Part shown: positions 12,059 through 32,882 of the stretch, piece after piece | Layout: each line of letters starts with the position of its first letter | How positions within the stretch are numbered: position 1 is the stretch's first letter | From: Bacteroidia bacterium | GTDB lineage: Bacteria; Bacteroidota; Bacteroidia; JAIBAJ01 | Direction of reading: 5' to 3' | Assembly (NCBI GenBank): GCA_019695265.1 | Contig: JAIBAJ010000025.1 | Coordinates: 1 to 34,463, forward strand | DNA: 34,463 bases | Position numbers and translations under genes: made by a program | Notes under the pieces: model-generated | Databases searched by the model: none | Told to the model about the DNA's origin: nothing | What the model saw: the letters and a program-made list of their open reading frames with translations, nothing else

Positions 12059-12202
12059 GGCGGGTCCCTTCGCATAGGCTTTGACACATCGACCAGTTTT
12101 TTGCGGGCTCAGGGCCGGGCTATTCACTACAAGTCCTCGCCCCGAAAGGGTTCGGGGCTGTGGGCTTTCCGTTACTATCCCTACCCGGAAGGTCCGTGCA
12201 AG
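12059..12202 (+). repeat. GC-rich structured repeat, subfamily F2, copy 1
   Basis: Begins GGCGGGTCCC 54 nt after the saccharopine dehydrogenase stop and reads in that gene's sense. Pairings seen: CCGGG 12115-12119 with CCCGG 12184-12188; AAGTCC 12131-12136 with GGGCTT 12162-12167; and a perfect 8 bp hairpin GCCCCGAA/TTCGGGGC with loop AGGG (12139-12158). It aligns with the minus-strand copy at 32731-32882 over both ends and the CTGTGGGCTTTCC block. The right boundary is approximate. Confidence 0.8.
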
Positions 12203-12292
12203 CCCGAGTGTACAGAGCTATGACCAATCCATTTCCATTTTTATACGGATAATAAAGCTGCAAAAGAATTCAATTCCGGTTTATCCCAATTT

Positions 12293-12518
12293 ATACCAAT
12301 TTTAATTTATAAATAGTCCGAAGGCTTTTATAAATTTAGATTGGTAAGTACCGAGGATACAAAATGTTAGTCCGATTTTTTCAAGAAAATTTAAATATAA
12401 AATTGGACTATACATTTTGTCCATTCGGTATAAATGCCGAGTATACAGAATGTTAGGCCAATTTTCTCAATAAAAATTAATGCCTAAAATTGGACTAAAT
12501 ATAATGTACATTCGGTAT
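12293..12518. repeat. AT-rich palindromic modules (three in tandem)
   Basis: Three imperfect hairpins follow one another: about 12293-12346 (ATACCAAT to ATTGGTA), 12347-12431 and 12434-12518. Their arms are copies of a 27 bp motif, ATACCRA-N13-ATAGTCC or close to it: 12293-12319 on plus, 12405-12431 and 12492-12518 on minus. The inner arms add complementary ATTTT and AAAAT around AT-rich loops. Confidence 0.7.
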
Positions 12519-12600
12519 TAATCAATAGGAAGATTTCAAATCCGAACTACTTGATTTAGTTGGGTTTACCCCTCCTGAAGTATTTCGGGAAGAAGTTGTT

Positions 12601-12729
12601 ATACCAATGTTATTTGAAAAATAGTCCAAAAACTAGTTTGAAAATTACAGTGGTAAATGCCGATGCAAAAGGTGTTTAGGCAAATTAATGCGAAGCATAA
12701 TTGGACTATTACAGATTTGCTATCGGTAT
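12601..12729. repeat. AT-rich palindromic modules (second pair)
   Basis: A second module pair: a left hairpin from 12601 (ATACCAAT to GTGGTA) and a right hairpin ending at 12729. The 27 bp motif occurs at 12601-12627 on plus and 12703-12729 on minus, each ending ATAGTCC. It is more diverged than the first set and is separated from it by about 80 bp of unremarkable sequence. Confidence 0.6.
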
Positions 12730-12824
12730 TATCAATTTGGACAAACAAATCGATTTACAAATTCTTAACTCGTTTTGGCATTTCTAATGCGTAATCAGGG
12801 TTAATGCAAGGTCGAAGGATGGAC

Positions 12825-12986
12825 ATTGGGGGTTGCACCCTCGGGCAACGATAGAGCCAAGTAGCCCACAGGACCACTACGGCTTTAGCCTAGGGGGACG
12901 AGGACTACAGGCGAAAGCGTGACCCGAACGCCAATTTTTTTTCCTTTGGAATTGCAGGATTTTGGTTGGCGGAGGGGGCCCGCATA
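12825..12986 (-). repeat. GC-rich structured repeat, subfamily F1, copy 1
   Basis: On the minus strand it begins TATGCGGGCCCCCTCCGC, 45 nt past the POT transporter stop and in that gene's sense. It contains TCGGG (minus complement of 12923-12927) pairing with CCCGA (12841-12845), GTAGTCC pairing with GGGCTAC, and the hairpin CCTAGGC-TAAA-GCC. The core closely matches the copies at 27318 and 32415, while the roughly 45 nt after the first hairpin is variable. Confidence 0.85.
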
Positions 12987-13031: not shown

Positions 13032-14537
13032 TTACCGAACCTCACCCATTAATTTTCGAACCAGGGGAGAAATTGCGATTAAAACTACACCGCAAATTAA
13101 TCCATAAATGGCCAATTGTTTATAACCTGCTGCATATACCATCAACTTGCCCAAATTGGTTGAATTGGCGGATGCTTCTGCAATGTTTGCACCTAAAATT
13201 CCGGCCAAATATTGTCCGTAAGCACTTGCTAGAAACCACATTCCCATCATAACACCTTGCAATTTTTTGGGCGATAATTGAGTCATAATCGACATTCCGA
13301 TTGGAGATAATGAAAGTTCACCAAAAGTTATTACGAACCAGGCAAAGGTGAAAATACCCAAGGATGTTTTACCATCCGGAGTTGCAAAAGTGGAGGAAAA
13401 ATTAAATATGAAAAAACCGGCAGCGAGGAAAAGGAAACCTAATCCAAACTTGATTAAGGTATTGGGTTCTAGCTTAAAATTGGATAAGAAAACCCAAAAC
13501 ATACCCAACAAGGGAGCGAAAATGATAACAAACAAGGAGTTGGCCGAATTGTTTACGCCGTTAGGGTCGAAAGAAATTCCCAATATGGTATTGTGAAGAT
13601 TATTGGCGGCAAACAAACTTAAGCTTCCACCACTTTGTTCGTAAAAAGCCCAAAAGAAAATAGAGAATAGAATAAAAACCATAGCGGCTACCAGCTTTTT
13701 ATTTTCCGCCGCAGAAAAGTTTCGCATCTCATAAATAAGATAAACAATCGATAATGGTCCGATGATATACATGAATAAATCGGTGTATTTGGTTTCAGAA
13801 ACCATTAACATAACAATTGGGATAAACAAAACGCTTCCAATGTAGGTTAGCCATTCCAGCATTTTCCTTTTTTTAGGATCTTCATTTTCAAGCGGAGACA
13901 AACCTATTTCACCTAGATTTTTCTGGGTTTGAGTAAAGGTGATAATGCTAACAAACATGACGATGGAAGCCAAGCCAAAAGCCACATTCCAGCGCAATGC
14001 TTCAGGAATATAGGATTCGAGGAAATTTCCATTGGCAATGGCGATGCAAAAGTATCCGCCCAGGAAGGCACCTAAATTAACACCTGCATAAAACAAAGAG
14101 AATCCTGAAACCCTTCTGGTATCATCGGGATGATACAATTCTCCAACAATGGAAGAAATATTGGGCTTAAAAAACCCTGTTCCTATAATATTAAACCCGA
14201 TTCCTAAGAAAAAGAATTTTTGGGGATCAATGGCTAAAACCACACTTCCGATAATCATTAGAATTCCGCCCCAAAAAAGCGATTTTCTAAATCCAAAAAT
14301 TTTGTCGGCAAAAATGCCACCCACAAAAGTGAAGGCATAAACAAAAGCCTGAATTGCTCCATACTGTAGGTTGGCAACCTTGTCCTCCATTTTTAACTGA
14401 CCAACCATAAATACCATCAGCATTCCCCTCATTCCATAAAATGAAAACCTTTCCCACATTTCGGAGAAAAACAAATACCACAGTTGTTTCGGATAAGGCC
14501 CTTTAAAATTTCTAATCTCTTCTTTAGTTAATGACAT
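13032..14537 (-). CDS. POT/PTR family proton-coupled peptide transporter
   Basis: A 501-residue inner-membrane MFS transporter of the proton-dependent oligopeptide family, importing di- and tripeptides. The first helix carries the family signature EMWERFSFYGMRGML (ExxERFxYYG-type), and a second signature, FYAGVNLGAFLGGYF, follows near residue 160. About 12-14 hydrophobic helices run to the C-terminus. The region GELSLSPIGMSIMTQLSP matches the conserved second half of the family. I chose ATG at 14537 (MSLTKEEIRNFKGPYP); an upstream TTG at 14561 would overlap the preceding gene. It starts 10 nt after the stop of the 1478-residue exported protein, so the two are likely cotranscribed. The peptide-import role is well established for the family. 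Confidence 0.93.
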   Translation of the reverse strand: MSLTKEEIRNFKGPYPKQLWYLFFSEMWERFSFYGMRGMLMVFMVGQLKMEDKVANLQYGAIQAFVYAFTFVGGIFADKIFGFRKSLFWGGILMIIGSVVLAIDPQKFFFLGIGFNIIGTGFFKPNISSIVGELYHPDDTRRVSGFSLFYAGVNLGAFLGGYFCIAIANGNFLESYIPEALRWNVAFGLASIVMFVSIITFTQTQKNLGEIGLSPLENEDPKKRKMLEWLTYIGSVLFIPIVMLMVSETKYTDLFMYIIGPLSIVYLIYEMRNFSAAENKKLVAAMVFILFSIFFWAFYEQSGGSLSLFAANNLHNTILGISFDPNGVNNSANSLFVIIFAPLLGMFWVFLSNFKLEPNTLIKFGLGFLFLAAGFFIFNFSSTFATPDGKTSLGIFTFAWFVITFGELSLSPIGMSIMTQLSPKKLQGVMMGMWFLASAYGQYLAGILGANIAEASANSTNLGKLMVYAAGYKQLAIYGLICGVVLIAISPLVRKLMGEVR

Positions 14538-14547
14538 AGGTTCGCTA

Positions 14548-17500
14548 TTATTTGGTTTCAAAACTTCTCAGGAAGTCACGTTTTTTTAATTCGGTAGACA
14601 AGTTGTATTGGTAATGAACTTTGCCGGCATGATCTCTTTTTTCAAGTTTTGTTTCGCGAATGGCGGAATTAAATTCCTGATTACTACTAATTGCGCTCAT
14701 TAAACCGTTGCGATAGGTAAAGAAATACCATTGACCTTCGCTAGGCTCTAAATATAAAGACCAGCTATCGCCACCTCGTTTTTTCACATATTCAATGGCA
14801 CCGTAGCATTGTTTATTTACCTGGAAACCGATTACGGAACTTACCCCAATAAATCCTTTGTAGCGATAGGAACTATTTTTGGTGCTCCATGCCAATTTCA
14901 AATCGCTAAGGAATAAAGTTTGGTTGAGTTCTTCAGGAGTTTTTTTGTATGTACCATAAAGGTTCAGCTCTTGCATATATTTAGTAGCCTTTTCCTTTCC
15001 GGCCAACTCCATTAAGGCTTTTTCATATTCATTGCCATAGGTAACAGCTTCGAGCGGAGGAAAGTGGTTATAAAGCTTCTCAGCCATGATACGCATTGCT
15101 TCTTCGTTAAAGAAAAAGTTCATACCGACAAATCCATTGAACACGGTTGTATCGGCTTCCATAATGTGATTAATAACACCCACCGGTTGAATCTCTACCT
15201 GCCCTAAATCAACTCCAAAATTCATTTTACCTTGTCCATTCACTACGCATTTATCGTTTAAACTAATAAAGTTACCAGGTACCACAGCTCCTTTCAATTT
15301 TTCTTTGTTGGATATTCTAAACTCCTTGCTGGTGTTGTCATAATACAAATATCCATCCGCAGCAATTACATCGATATCGGAATAGGAAACCTTTTTAGAA
15401 AGGAAAGTTGGATACACATGGGTACTATCTTTGGTTAACACAATACCGGTTGAGATTTTATTTCCATTGGCATCTTTGGGTTCTTTTTCGATTGGGATAA
15501 GGATTTCTTTTGGATTAATTTCCGATTCAAACCTCAACCAACTGCTACCAATACCTTCGCAATTTTGAATAATTTTAGTGCTACCATTAAAGGTTAAGAA
15601 CTCCTTACTGGCATACAATTGCGCTTTACCTTTATAAGCAAAATAAGGACTAAGGGTGAATCCTGTTTCTTCCAGAACGCTGCCTTCGCCATAGGTTTGG
15701 AAGGCCGAATCAACCGATATTTTATCCAAAGCAATGGATTTCTTTTGACCTGCCACATCTACATAGTCATATTTTCCGCTACCGCTATACCGTTTACGTC
15801 CGGTAATTTTCAGATTACATTCATACAACTTATGAAATTTAGTAGTTCTATTAGCGATGATTTTGGCATTATTAAGCTCTTGCATATCTGCATTTTCTTT
15901 AACCACAACCTTACCGCTATCCGGGAAAATTTGGGCATCGGCACTTTCGATATATTTAACATCAAAGGCTGTGATGGTGAAGGCCTTTTGATCAAAGGTT
16001 GCTTTGGGTGAAACAAAATACAAGGAATCTTGACCGTGGGCAATAGAAACGAATTTAGAACCAACCAGATCACCATCCCCGCCGCTAACCTTGTTTTTAG
16101 AAATGAAGTCAATGGTTCCTTTGTCCATAAACCATTTAAACTCATCAATCATACAAATGTATTTATTAACCGGGAATTGAACCGAGGTAGCGCCTGCATT
16201 GGATTTAAACTCCCCAACCCTTTTATTAAAATCGATGTTCGATTTCAGGTTGGTGGTAGTGAAGGAAGGAGCTTTGGTATTTGGATCGGTAAGCCGGAAG
16301 TTACTGGTATCGGCCGAAAACGAATTTTGTTTGTATTTAAAATTTTTGGAATCCATTTCTGCCAAATCAAAATCCATAAGTCCATTTCCGGATAAACCTT
16401 TAGGAGAAAGGCTAACTTTACCTTTCATGGTGCTAATTCCGTTAAATAAGGAAATAGGCTTTTCTCTGGAAGAAACTTCCATTACATCCTTTTTTGGCAA
16501 CCAATGAACGAAAGCACCTTCTGCATTTCCTTGCGGATATTCCGGAGGACCGGCCGATTGGGTCATGGTATAAGTTTCAGCCGTAGTATTGGTACTATCC
16601 GGATAAAACAATATTTCCTTCGAAGTTGTCACCGAATTAAGGTATTTAATTTCACCACTACCTTTTAATCCTTCATTACTCATTTGGATTTCATTGGTAA
16701 ACTTTCCTTTTCCACCATACAAATCCATTCCACCGGGTGGTGTTTTCTTTTTGAAACCTAAGGAATAATCGTCTTGTAAGGTTAATGTCTCATCAAAGTC
16801 ATTAAAAATACCGGCAGAACTAAATTCTCCTTTAAAGGCCAAACCTTCTGCGGTAAAGTTGTCAAGGGAATCAATTTCAAAAGGTTTATTTCGGAAATAG
16901 AAATTTTCCTTTTTATAAGCTCCCTTTTGAATATTCTTATTATCGTAATAGACATAGGAATCCTTCAAACTTTTAAAAATTGGATACTGAGGAAAGTTTT
17001 TCAATCCGGATTTATTGGCAGGCTGATCGATGAACAATTCCCCTCTGATATCTTGTATCAGGGATTTTACTGCAATTAATTTCAAAGGACGACCAAACTC
17101 ATCTTTTTCTTTGGATGGCACTTTAATTCGAAGGCTATCCACAGCATTCAGATTAATTTTAAAAAAATTGTAGTTGAAGTCATATTCTTTACCGAAAAAT
17201 GTAAAACGTCCGGCTTGAACCTTTCCATCGAATGTAAAGTTTCTATCCTTCTTAATTACAATTTCCTGGTTTTTGGGCGCTATGTAAACATTCTGTGAAT
17301 CGGAGAGGAAAATCTCGGCAACTCCCCGTGTTTGTAAATCAAAATTCAACAGGCTTAAGGTAGCATTTCCGCCTTTTTCAATCTGAGAAATAAACTGAAT
17401 TACGTCGTAATCCTTTGTTCCAACTCTGTTTTGAAGATAATCGGTAGCCTTATCTTTAACGGTTACCTCATCTTTATCCAAATCATAGGCGCAAAAACCT

Positions 17501-26553: not shown

Positions 26554-27261
26554 ATGCCCGGTAAATTATTCCTAATTCCCGTTTTTCTCGAAGAAACTGC
26601 TTCTTCTGAGCAAGTTTTCCCTGCAATCAACCTGGATATTCTAAATCACCTTTCCCATTTCATTGCCGAAAATGACAAATTAGCCAGAAGGTTTCTAAAA
26701 AGGGTCAACTATCAATTACCCTTGTCTGATGCTCAAATTGAACTATTAAATGAACATACCAAAACCGAAGAAGTTTTTCAATTGCTTCAACCTGCGCTTC
26801 AAGGAATCAATATGGGATTATTGTCTGATGCAGGATGCCCGGGTGTAGCCGACCCGGGTGCCTTGGTTGTTCAGTTAGCACATGATTTAGGTATTACGGT
26901 AGAACCATTGATTGGACCTTCTTCCATTCTATTATCACTTATGGCTAGCGGAATGAATGGTCAACAATTTACCTTCCACGGTTACCTTCCTATTGACAAA
27001 ATTCAGAGAGCAAGAACTTTAAAAGACCTATCCAATCATAGTATTCGTACCGGTCATACTCAACTATTTATTGAAACTCCGTATCGAAACCAGGCGATTT
27101 TCGAAGATATCCTAAAAAATTGTTCAACCGATTTGCGTTTGTGCATTGCTTGTAACCTTACTGCATCAACAGGTTGGACAAAAAGTATGTCTATTCAGTC
27201 ATGGAAAAATAAAAAACCGGATATTCATAAAAAACCTTGTATTTTCCTGATTGGTCGTTAA
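26554..27261 (+). CDS. short RsmI-like SAM-dependent methylase (tetrapyrrole methylase fold)
   Basis: 235 residues, shorter than canonical RsmI (about 280), which 2'-O-methylates a 16S rRNA cytidine. The glycine-rich SAM-binding block is present (LLSDAGCPGVADPGA, residues 90-103), followed by EPLIGPSSILLSLMASGM and FHGYLPIDK, all typical of the COG0313 fold. The N-terminal motif differs: canonical PTPIGNL is replaced by IPVFLEETAS, and the AEDTR segment by AENDKLARRFLKR. There is no RsmI C-terminal domain. This is probably the diverged Bacteroidota paralogue rather than RsmI itself, and the methylated target is unknown. ATG at 26554 begins the fold directly. It is the last gene of the phosphatase transcript and is followed by an F1 repeat 56 nt downstream. 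Confidence 0.88.
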   Translation: MPGKLFLIPVFLEETASSEQVFPAINLDILNHLSHFIAENDKLARRFLKRVNYQLPLSDAQIELLNEHTKTEEVFQLLQPALQGINMGLLSDAGCPGVADPGALVVQLAHDLGITVEPLIGPSSILLSLMASGMNGQQFTFHGYLPIDKIQRARTLKDLSNHSIRTGHTQLFIETPYRNQAIFEDILKNCSTDLRLCIACNLTASTGWTKSMSIQSWKNKKPDIHKKPCIFLIGR

Positions 27262-27317: not shown

Positions 27318-27480
27318 TATGCGGGCCCCCTCCGCCCCTACCAGCTTTTGCAAAATCGAATAAATCTTGCACGGGCGTTCGGGTCACGCTATCGGCTGTA
27401 GTCCTCGTCCACCTAGGCTAAAGCCGTAGGTGTCCTGTGGGCTACCTGCCTCTATCGTTGCCCGAGGGTGCAAACCCCAA
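27318..27480 (+). repeat. GC-rich structured repeat, subfamily F1, copy 2
   Basis: The clearest copy. Begins TATGCGGGCCCCCTCCGC 56 nt after the RsmI-like stop, sense to that gene. Pairings: TCGGG 27379-27383 with CCCGA 27461-27465; GTAGTCC 27398-27404 with GGGCTAC 27439-27445; ACCTAGGC 27411-27418 with GCCGTAGGT 27423-27431 (loop TAAA, one bulged G); and a terminal hairpin GGGT-GCAA-ACCC at 27466-27477 whose loop is of GNRA type. Confidence 0.85.
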
Positions 27481-27494
27481 ATGTATCAGCTATT

Positions 27495-27633
27495 TTACCA
27501 ATTTTAATTGATAAATAGTCCGAAGGCTATTCATAAAACAAAACACTTAAATACCTATTAAACAATATGTTAGGTCAATCTATCGAGAAAATTTAAACAT
27601 AAAATTGGATTATAGATATTGTCCAGTCCTTAT
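27495..27633. repeat. AT-rich palindromic module pair
   Basis: A left module from TTACCAATTTTAATTG (27495; motif copy 27495-27521 ending ATAGTCC) and a right module ending at 27633 with a degraded minus-strand motif copy (27607-27633). The TAGTCCGAAGGCT stretch is identical to that at 12314-12326. It lies directly after the F1 repeat, the same neighbourhood as at 12.3-12.7 kb. Confidence 0.65.
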
Positions 27634-27760
27634 CACAATATCAATCAGGCTTCTGCAAGAAATTCATGGCATTTTAGAAGAATCATTGCAACCTCAAAGG
27701 GTAAATAAGTGAATAATTAATTGATAAAAATAGCTTGAGTATTTTTCAGTCCCCCCCTAA

Positions 27761-31185: not shown

Positions 31186-32364
31186 ATGAAAACCGTTTAT
31201 ATTGTTTCTGCCGCTCGCACCCCAATTGGTAGTTTTGGCGGAACCCTTGCCTCCTTTTCTGCCACTAAACTTGGTGCAATCGCAATCAAAGGTGCACTCG
31301 AAAAAGCAGGAATTTCTCCAGATCAAGTGAATGAGGTGTATATGGGCAATGTGCTTTCTGCAAATGTTGGACAAGCACCGGCAACCCAAGCAGCACGTTT
31401 TGCAGGTATTCCCGATCAGGTGCCAAGTACCACCATTAACAAAGTATGCGCTTCCGGAATGAAAGCCATTATGCTTGGAGCTCAAAGTATTGCCCTCGGT
31501 GAAAACGATGTGGTTGTTGCCGGCGGAATGGAAAGCATGAGCAATGTTCCTTATTACCTCGATAAAGCTAGAAATGGATATAGACTTGGCCATGGACAAA
31601 TTACCGATGGCCTGGTTAAAGATGGATTGTGGGATGTGTACAAAGATTATCACATGGGCTCTGCCGCCGAACTTTGTGCCTCCGAATGCAAAATTTCCAG
31701 GGAAGATCAAGATAACTTTGCCATTGAAAGCTATAAAAAAGCTGCTGCTGCAACCGAAGCAGGAAAATTTAAAAACGAAATTGTTCCTGTCGAAATCCCA
31801 CAAAAAGGTGGTACCAGCCTAAGTTTTGATTTGGATGAAGAATACAAAGCAGTAAAATTTGATAAAATTCCGGGACTAAAACCTGTATTTCAAAAAGATG
31901 GAACAGTTACGGCTGCCAATGCTTCAACCCTCAATGATGGTGCGGCTGCGGTGGTTTTAATGAGTAAAGAAAAAGCTGATGAATTAGGTATTAAACCTTT
32001 AGCTATTGTTCGTTCTTTTGCCGATGCGCAACAAGCTCCCGAATGGTTTACTACTGCTCCTTCCAAAGCCTTGCCAAAAGCTGTTGCTAAAGCCGGTTTA
32101 CAATTAAGTGATGTGGATTTTTTCGAAATAAACGAAGCTTTTTCCGTTGTTTCTTTGGCCAATAACCAACTTATGAACTTAAATCCTGATAAAGTAAATG
32201 TAAATGGTGGTGCGGTGAGTATTGGCCATCCATTGGGTTGCAGTGGTGCTCGTATCGTAGTAACCTTGGTGAATGTACTACATCAAAACAACGGTAAAAT
32301 TGGTGCCGCAGGTATTTGCAATGGTGGTGGTGGTGCCAGCGCAATAGTTATTGAAAGAGTCTAA
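31186..32364 (+). CDS. acetyl-CoA C-acetyltransferase (thiolase)
   Basis: A 392-residue type II thiolase that condenses two acetyl-CoA to acetoacetyl-CoA or cleaves it, and may act on longer 3-ketoacyl-CoA. The acylated cysteine is C88 in NKVCASGMKA, the base H348 is in SIGHPLGCSGAR, and the second cysteine C378 is in GICNGGGGA. The N-terminal block SAARTPIGSFGGTLA and the NEAF motif (EINEAFSV) are also conserved. Length is full. It has its own promoter and a strong terminator, so it is probably a single-gene transcript. Together with scoB it could supply a ketone-body or amino-acid degradation route. AtoB/ThlA-like is the best match by eye; FadA-type is less likely. Confidence 0.95.
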   Translation: MKTVYIVSAARTPIGSFGGTLASFSATKLGAIAIKGALEKAGISPDQVNEVYMGNVLSANVGQAPATQAARFAGIPDQVPSTTINKVCASGMKAIMLGAQSIALGENDVVVAGGMESMSNVPYYLDKARNGYRLGHGQITDGLVKDGLWDVYKDYHMGSAAELCASECKISREDQDNFAIESYKKAAAATEAGKFKNEIVPVEIPQKGGTSLSFDLDEEYKAVKFDKIPGLKPVFQKDGTVTAANASTLNDGAAAVVLMSKEKADELGIKPLAIVRSFADAQQAPEWFTTAPSKALPKAVAKAGLQLSDVDFFEINEAFSVVSLANNQLMNLNPDKVNVNGGAVSIGHPLGCSGARIVVTLVNVLHQNNGKIGAAGICNGGGGASAIVIERV

Positions 32365-32383
32365 TATACAACCATATATAAGC

Positions 32384-32415
32384 AAAAGGTCTTCCATAGT
32401 GAAGGCCTTTTTTTT
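32384..32415 (+). terminator. intrinsic terminator of the thiolase gene
   Basis: AAGGTCTTC (32386-32394) pairs with GAAGGCCTT (32401-32409) around a 6 nt loop, with one G-T pair, and runs into eight T (32408-32415). The F1 repeat begins at the end of this T tract. Confidence 0.9.
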
Positions 32416-32579
32416 ATGCGGGCCCCCTTCAGCCCATCTTAATCTATTCCAATTTTTAAACTACTTCACTTGGGCTTTCGGGTCACGCTATCGCCTGTAG
32501 TCCTCGTCCCCCTAGGCTAACGCCGTCGGGCTCCTGTGGGCTACTTGGCTCTATCGTTGCCCGAGGTGCAAACCCCCAA
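32415..32579 (+). repeat. GC-rich structured repeat, subfamily F1, copy 3
   Basis: Begins TATGCGGGCCCCCTTC directly at the T tract of the thiolase terminator, sense to that gene. It keeps TCGGG/CCCGA, GTAGTCC/GGGCTAC, the hairpin around CCTAGGC-TAAC-GCC (with TCGGG in place of TAGGG on the 3' arm), and a shortened terminal GGT-GCAA-ACC hairpin. The 45 nt after the first GC block is unrelated to the other copies. Confidence 0.85.
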
Positions 32580-32730: not shown

Positions 32731-32882
32731 CAACTGCCCCGGGTAGGGATAGTAGTGGAAAGCCCACAGACGACCGCAGCGCTAGCTAAGGGCGGCGAGG
32801 ACTTGGAACGGATAGCCCGACCATGAGCCATTCAATACAAATGGGAACTATGCAACCTTGGTGGAGGCGAATGGGACCCGCC
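32731..32882 (-). repeat. GC-rich structured repeat, subfamily F2, copy 2
   Basis: On the minus strand it begins GGCGGGTCCCATTCGCC immediately after the T tract of the pruA terminator, in pruA sense. TCGGG (complement of 32816-32820) pairs with CCCGG (32739-32743) through one G-T pair; AAGTCC (32799-32804) pairs with GGGCTT (32760-32765); the central hairpin is CCGC...GCGG with a different sequence from the other F2 copy. Confidence 0.8.

Follow-up and report, generated by a model that had tools for sequence, protein, structure and literature searches.

Flavo-1 (RF01705) is a widely annotated "RNA" family that is kept as an orphan in Rfam. It was graded a probable RNA in the main text of Weinberg et al. 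2010 (PMC2864571), and in a 2022 review (PMC9029176) it is listed with the small-RNA families of highest abundance. That main text, Additional files aside, mentions no dispersal in ~500 copies, no convergent pairing and no T-runs 5' of the element. In a survey of HuH enzymes (PMC6006769), subclass 1.2 was reported as generally devoid of IS200-type terminal structures, and Y1 subclass 2.6 of Bacteroidetes was flanked by atypical structures that are also found elsewhere in the genome.

We investigated a window of 34,463 nt, the entire contig C25 of a 3.83 Mb draft genome whose nearest comparison genomes belong to other families within the same class. A preliminary description had reported five GC-rich repeat copies in this window, split into the groups F1 and F2, and all five were confirmed at their coordinates. 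F1 comprises the copies at 12825..12986 (minus strand), 27318..27480 (plus strand, the reference copy) and 32415..32579 (plus strand); F2 comprises those at 12059..12202 (plus strand) and 32731..32882 (minus strand). Four of these copies form two convergent F1-F2 pairs, 12825 with 12059 and 32415 with 32731. The 5' ends of the first two F1 copies lie 46 nt downstream of the stop of the minus-strand ORF 13032-14561 and 57 nt downstream of the stop of ORF 26554-27261. The third starts 51 nt downstream of the stop of ORF 31186-32364 and immediately behind an intrinsic terminator's T-run (about 32398-32417).

Rfam gave no match anywhere in the window at the gathering cut-off. Using a permissive threshold, we observed that both F2 copies match the full RF01705 model (1-76) on the opposite strand, with 33.7 bits each (E 4.7e-5 and 3.6e-5), below the gathering score of 42. 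The matches cover 12109-12189 on the minus strand and C25:32738-32826 on the plus strand. The repeat had initially not been recognized as a described element, which is wrong for F2, since it belongs to this known Rfam family, a result that the preliminary description had itself counted as a refutation; F1 and the three-way junction described below are absent from the Rfam model, and F1 gave no Flavo-1 match even at E<=10. The whole genome contains ten matches to RF01705 above gathering and ~55 more at E<3e-3. The ten (L183-L192) mostly follow the P1-P2-P3 plan of the window copies, with a 5' GGGTT-type P1, a CCCCT(AA)CGGG-type P2 and the same P3; L183 is truncated where its contig stops, and L190 and L192 differ in P2 or along the whole element. 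F1 is homologous to F2 and Flavo-1 through a common AGTCCTCG/CTGTGGGCT core and P1. Moreover, F2 copies are also picked up by the F1 profile, with nhmmer scores that change gradually from one group to the other, and mixed copies are present; F1 and F2 are thus subfamilies of one element and not two separate families. F1 is the stem-extended and more abundant subfamily, which Rfam does not detect. We firmly conclude that all five are members of a single repeat superfamily that spans the phylum and of which Flavo-1 is the part described earlier; compared with the orphan "Flavo-1 RNA", the form in this genome is larger and more diverse. A literature search with sequence strings of the element returned nothing relevant.

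Each copy measures 90-165 nt and is organized as a three-way junction, with a closing stem P1, a side hairpin P2 whose loop holds 3 to about 45 variable nt, and a long stem P3 whose pairing is interrupted at conserved symmetric mismatches and whose tip carries an exchangeable hairpin, P4. The phylum-wide consensus reads TTTGGGCGTNA, P2 hairpin, TCGGGCTWTCCRYTNCAAGTCCTCG, P4 hairpin, CTGTGGGCTTTCCRCTNCNATCCCTNACGC. P1 occurs as GCGTTA/TAACGC, GCGTGA/TCACGC, GCGCAA/TTGCGC, GCGCCA/TGGCGC or GCGGGY/RCCCG. P3 runs in the order GGG/CCC, C.T mismatch, TA/TA, 3x3 loop, GC/GC, 3x3 loop and AAGTCC/GGGCTT, the last with a fixed T.G pair. This pair was present in 52/52 elements across the phylum, where the search pattern itself fixed these letters, and again in 33/33 and 61/61 elements from the profile searches of this genome, where the letters were not preset. 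F1 differs from F2 by an inserted TCACG-type segment and by an ACG/CGT base that replaces GGG/CCC. In the F2 copy at 12059..12202, P1 is formed by 12060-12065/12183-12187, the P2 arms by about 12066-12073/12106-12114, P3 by 12117-12136/12162-12181 and the P4 hairpin by 12140-12157; the P4 hairpin of the copy at 32731..32882 is of the CGCCCTTAGCTAGCG type. Two helices had to be reassigned. The outer stem had been drawn as TCGGG/CCCGA, but GCGGGC at the 5' terminus co-occurs with GCCCGA at the 3' end, and GCGGGT with ACCCGA, whereas TCGGG varies independently (TCAGG in 9 copies); the stem is thus P1. Likewise, the former 5' hairpin consists of P1 plus the left arm of P2, and the right arm of P2 lies beyond the roughly 40-nt variable loop.

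We then considered whether this structure is maintained. The F1 motif folded better than its dinucleotide shuffles (z -3.1 on the plus and -3.65 on the minus strand), and F2 alone folded no better than shuffles by minimum free energy (z -0.8). In a sequence-only alignment of 33 F2 copies, 89.8% of the cells pair and 15/32 pairs show two-sided changes. The covariation score of 0.204 far exceeded chance, compared to 0.080+-0.008 for shuffles and at most 0.061 when the partners were slid, so that the covariation reported at the outset holds. An alignment-free assay pointed in the same direction: swapping arms between F2 elements of this genome weakened the pairing of P1, P2, P3 and P4 (z -6.4, -7.8, -7.1 and -9.5). 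The corresponding values for the phylum set were z -11.5, -11.7, -2.4 and -11.3, where P1 starts were chosen for complementarity and the P2 value is partly inflated because arm windows of short hairpins share bases. Relatedness of the copies inflates all arm and covariation tests, and their weight lies in the number of different helices and genera, not in the z values. The structure of the repeat is under selection, and the covariation supports the original suggestion that selection acts on a folded RNA or single-stranded DNA.

As an alternative, the repeat could be largely neutral and MITE-like, its arms staying complementary through template switching within a strand (quasi-palindrome correction) and not through selection. 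Such a process would fit the two-sided changes with almost no one-sided intermediates, the frequent A-T/T-A and G-C/C-G flips and the exchange of whole palindromes in the P2 and P4 tips. However, template switching would also erase internal mismatches, and the C.T, T.C/C.T and T.G positions of P3 are kept across the phylum; we consider this explanation improbable.

The hairpin tips themselves are exchangeable. The palindrome TCCCGATAGCTATCGGGA stands alone (L101:121, L288:1908, L298:1568 and L381:7670) and is also found inside elements of different genera, where it forms the tip of P2 or P4 (L071:6002, L132:4279, L139:5759, L306:763 and L318:601). At one orthologous intergenic region of Flavobacterium, P2 and P4 are entirely different between L315 and L316. 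In one F2 element of this genome, a copy of an AT-rich palindromic repeat takes the place of the P3/P4 tip. Some further observations concern these tips and their surroundings. L288 and L298, compared with L253, resemble filled and empty sites of the TCCCGATAGCTATCGGGA palindrome. The AT-rich family, TATACCAATTTTAATTTATAAATAGTCCGAAGGCT...GTCCATTCGGTAT, often lies just 3' of the GC-rich elements, with copies at 12286-12330, 12363-12520, 12595-12735 and 27490-27635 of the window and at about 65.9-66.1 kb of contig C1 (L196). Upstream of a Y1_Tnp gene, a Flavo-1-like copy (L412:3017-3181, minus strand) has its P4 replaced by a complete terminator-like hairpin, TCCCCAAACGAGC...GTTTGGGGATTTGTTTTT.

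Profile searches with F1 and F2 detected 101 elements in 735 kb (75 best as F1 and 26 as F2). Scaled to the 3.83 Mb genome, this amounts to about 526 copies, or 2.0% of the DNA. Their mean GC content was 0.58, compared to 0.39 for the genome, and all 101 copies examined were intergenic. Neighbors less than 1 kb apart were convergent in 18/18 pairs, and 7 of these pairs lie in tandem-gene regions, so that gene layout cannot account for those. Convergent gene regions held 46/93 classified copies (vs 24% of the intergenic length), and the 5' end was the nearer end in 36 of these 46. Overall, the 5' end lay a median of 54 nt downstream of a same-strand stop in this genome. Long gene-poor stretches between convergent copies on contigs C22, C3 and C1 were considered as autonomous elements and dismissed, as they resemble coding sequence of the host.

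Six or more consecutive T's were observed within 25 nt 5' of the element in 46/94 copies (49%), ten-fold over the background of 4.7% in random intergenic 25-mers; among 25-mers that follow element-free stops, the share was 9.3%. On the 3' side such a run was found in only 4/101 copies, and this position of the T-run argues against the element being an intrinsic terminator. The copy at 32415 and several others hinted at a general insertion behind intrinsic terminators. This was not borne out, since a hairpin precedes 9/49 of the T-runs, compared to 45/107 control runs. Most of the 5' T-runs are thus not terminators, and they belong to the element or to its target.

Placement was different in other Bacteroidota, where copies in tandem-gene regions are mostly antisense (22 vs 8, with crude gene calls); placement at sense 3' ends holds in this genome and is not a universal rule. 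At the orthologous Flavobacterium region, several species carry the element, L276, L277, L282, L296 and L317 lack it, and in L306 and L307 it has decayed. The flanks of this site are too diverged to define a target duplication, and no pairs of empty and filled sites were found within this genome. Rough skew maps of six genomes gave no clear signal of a replication-strand bias (60/150 copies on the leading strand).

Whether the selected fold is RNA or DNA was approached through the types of pairs. G.U is normally tolerated in RNA helices. In P1 and P3 of F2, 560 cells comprised 551 Watson-Crick pairs, 0 G.T, 0 A.C and 9 others, the fixed T.G pair excepted; the two-sided changes of these stems thus came without the G.U intermediates often seen in RNA. 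Subfamily bursts could be an alternative way to hide such intermediates. In F1, A.C (22) outnumbered G.T (6) on the strand on which the repeat was reported, the reverse of what is expected for an RNA made from that strand, whereas the fixed T.G pair, which would be an ordinary G.U in RNA, argues the opposite way. The evidence on the strand is therefore conflicting. Both orientations to genes occur, with sense-biased 3' ends here and an antisense bias in other Bacteroidota, and gene orientation points to no single transcribed strand. The transcriptome paper on F. psychrophilum (PMC9723704) reports Flavo-1 matches in either orientation relative to transcripts, and many that no transcript covers. 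These data on Flavo-1 transcription are negative or ambiguous and reveal no transcription logic.

The repeat may be a structured RNA, as Rfam assumes, which would be transcribed as a 3'-UTR, by readthrough or as a small RNA, fold, and bind a protein that stabilizes or regulates transcripts. The covariation at the level of structure, the 5' ends shortly past same-strand stops in this genome, the fixed U.G pair and the grading by Weinberg et al. all fit an RNA; the scarcity of G.U, the lineage-dependent gene orientation, the picture in F. psychrophilum and the ~500 copies per genome, which are unusual for an sRNA, do not. We regard an RNA as possible, though doubtful. Given the near-absence of G.U, the two gene orientations and the F. 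psychrophilum data, the balance of evidence leans toward a dispersed folded-DNA element over an sRNA or regulatory RNA, and we infer that a role at the DNA level is favored.

The superfamily extends beyond this genome. A pattern scan of named genomes yielded at least 120 stretches; among the matches listed, most were from Bacteroidota (Flavobacterium, Algibacter, Hyunsoonleella, Pedobacter, Mucilaginibacter, Chitinophagaceae and others), a Spirochaetales MAG had many copies, and a minority were chance matches in other phyla. In 6/8 scanned loci (L096, L106, L118, L139, L068 and L152), Flavo-1 matches below gathering lay over or beside the patterned element, and L072 had one match above gathering elsewhere in the locus. 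The matches in copies from other genera had the same relative strand as in F2. With strict filters, Flavo-1 was present in 43/296 sampled genomes of the phylum. In the Spirochaetales MAG (JAISAF01), copies of one uniform subfamily, whose P2 stems are long and T-rich, are densely packed (L072, L074, L076, L086, L093, L100, L106, L124, L145, L151 and L161), which suggests that the element was transferred to or recently amplified in a genome outside Bacteroidota, or that contigs were misbinned. Near-identical elements occur on plasmids of Bacteroides ovatus and Phocaeicola massiliensis (L259:4000-4076 and L260:3001-3075), and a Flavo-1-like element with P1 and P3 is intergenic in a record of the ssDNA Microviridae that is marked UNVERIFIED (L258:5604-5666, MG945641.1). 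A mainly phage-borne element was rejected, since the phage carriage observed amounted to this one Microviridae record and 14 viral contigs.

The reading that we consider most likely, with about an even chance of being correct, is that the repeat functions and disperses as folded DNA, much as REP/BIME elements do, via a trans-acting protein. Besides the pair types, the two gene orientations and the F. psychrophilum data, we count in its favor the covariation, the ~526 copies with all of those examined intergenic, the convergent neighbors, the 5' T-runs, the gain-or-loss pattern at the Flavobacterium site and the exchanged tips. Against it stand the missing mobilizer, the failure to obtain a clean empty and filled pair with a target duplication, the unclear replication-strand bias, the universal T.G pair and the conflicting strand evidence. 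A strand that becomes single during replication, in a transcription bubble or in a cruciform would fold, and a protein supplied in trans would recognize the folded form through the fixed mismatches of P3. The same protein might copy or move the folded element into T-rich intergenic DNA, where it would persist as a near-neutral DNA structure, often in convergent pairs.

Copy number, palindromic form, inverted pairing and intergenic placement, together with the precedent of subclass 2.6, would also suit classical REP/REPIN elements mobilized by a resident TnpA-REP (RAYT) transposase. However, the GT[AG]G foot is missing, the ends of the element being a T-run plus GCGGG/GGGCG. Furthermore, the two Y1_Tnp genes of this genome both lie among other repeats, namely GATATGTGACCCCgatGGGGTC arrays and TTATGACGGTTTAAACCGTCATAA. 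One of them (L031:1120-2340) has a YIENQKEHH motif, like HuH subclass 1.2, and is flanked by arrays of the REP-like palindrome GATATGTGACCCCGATGGGGTC; the other (L032:1260-1450) follows TTATGACGGTTTAAACCGTCATAA-type palindromes, and its catalytic Tyr motif appears altered (LFADQD). Among the 296 genomes surveyed, Y1_Tnp (E<=1e-6) was absent from the Flavo-1-saturated genomes G261, G315, G379 and G395, and many Y1-positive genomes had no Flavo-1. In Flavo-1-rich genomes, core-like sequence lay within 2.5 kb of 1/20 Y1 genes, with no enrichment, and all eleven Y1 genes with a script-readable motif had a Y---Q--H(H) signature, as in subclass 1.2. Mobilization by resident Y1/RAYT transposases was rejected because they show no association with the elements, here or across genomes, and a classical REP/RAYT system thus appears very unlikely. 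No mobilizer was identified among the Y1 transposases of this genome or of Flavo-1-rich genomes.

For the folded-DNA reading, a bolder version can be formulated, in which Flavo-1 would be no RNA gene and would instead form the core, so far the only part seen, of a class of mobile folded-strand DNA that extends across the phylum, with three-way junctions, exchangeable tips, machinery other than Y1 (HUH), and insertion beside T-runs, often in convergent pairs. We consider this version rather unlikely. If the full form is a three-way-junction DNA repeat with hundreds of copies per genome, many sRNA annotations in Bacteroidota would be misfiled, and the phylum would hold a large unexplored class of dispersed element. 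The corrected architecture and the F1 subfamily provide a better search model and allow a direct experimental test.

Compared to known systems, the repeat is closest to Flavo-1. It shares with RF01705 the P3/P4 match of the F2 copies and the canonical matches in this genome, the broken stem with symmetric internal loops, and the distribution in Bacteroidota (plus the copies in the Spirochaetales MAG). In contrast, the Rfam model covers 76 nt on the opposite strand, is restricted to P3/P4, with P1, P2 and the variable loop missing; F2 scores under gathering and F1 is undetected. Like IS200/IS605 ends and attC sites, which are folded single-strand recombination substrates, the repeat forms imperfect hairpins with conserved mismatches; it differs from them in having no transposase association that we could find and no clear replication-strand bias, and the inverted RYYYAAC/GTTRRRY core boxes of attC were not seen by eye. 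Compared to REP, BIME and REPIN elements, the Flavo-1 repeat is longer (90-165 nt), forms a three-way junction, and has neither a GTAG foot nor an associated Y1 transposase; it resembles them in its high copy number, its intergenic position, its folded form and its inverted neighbors.
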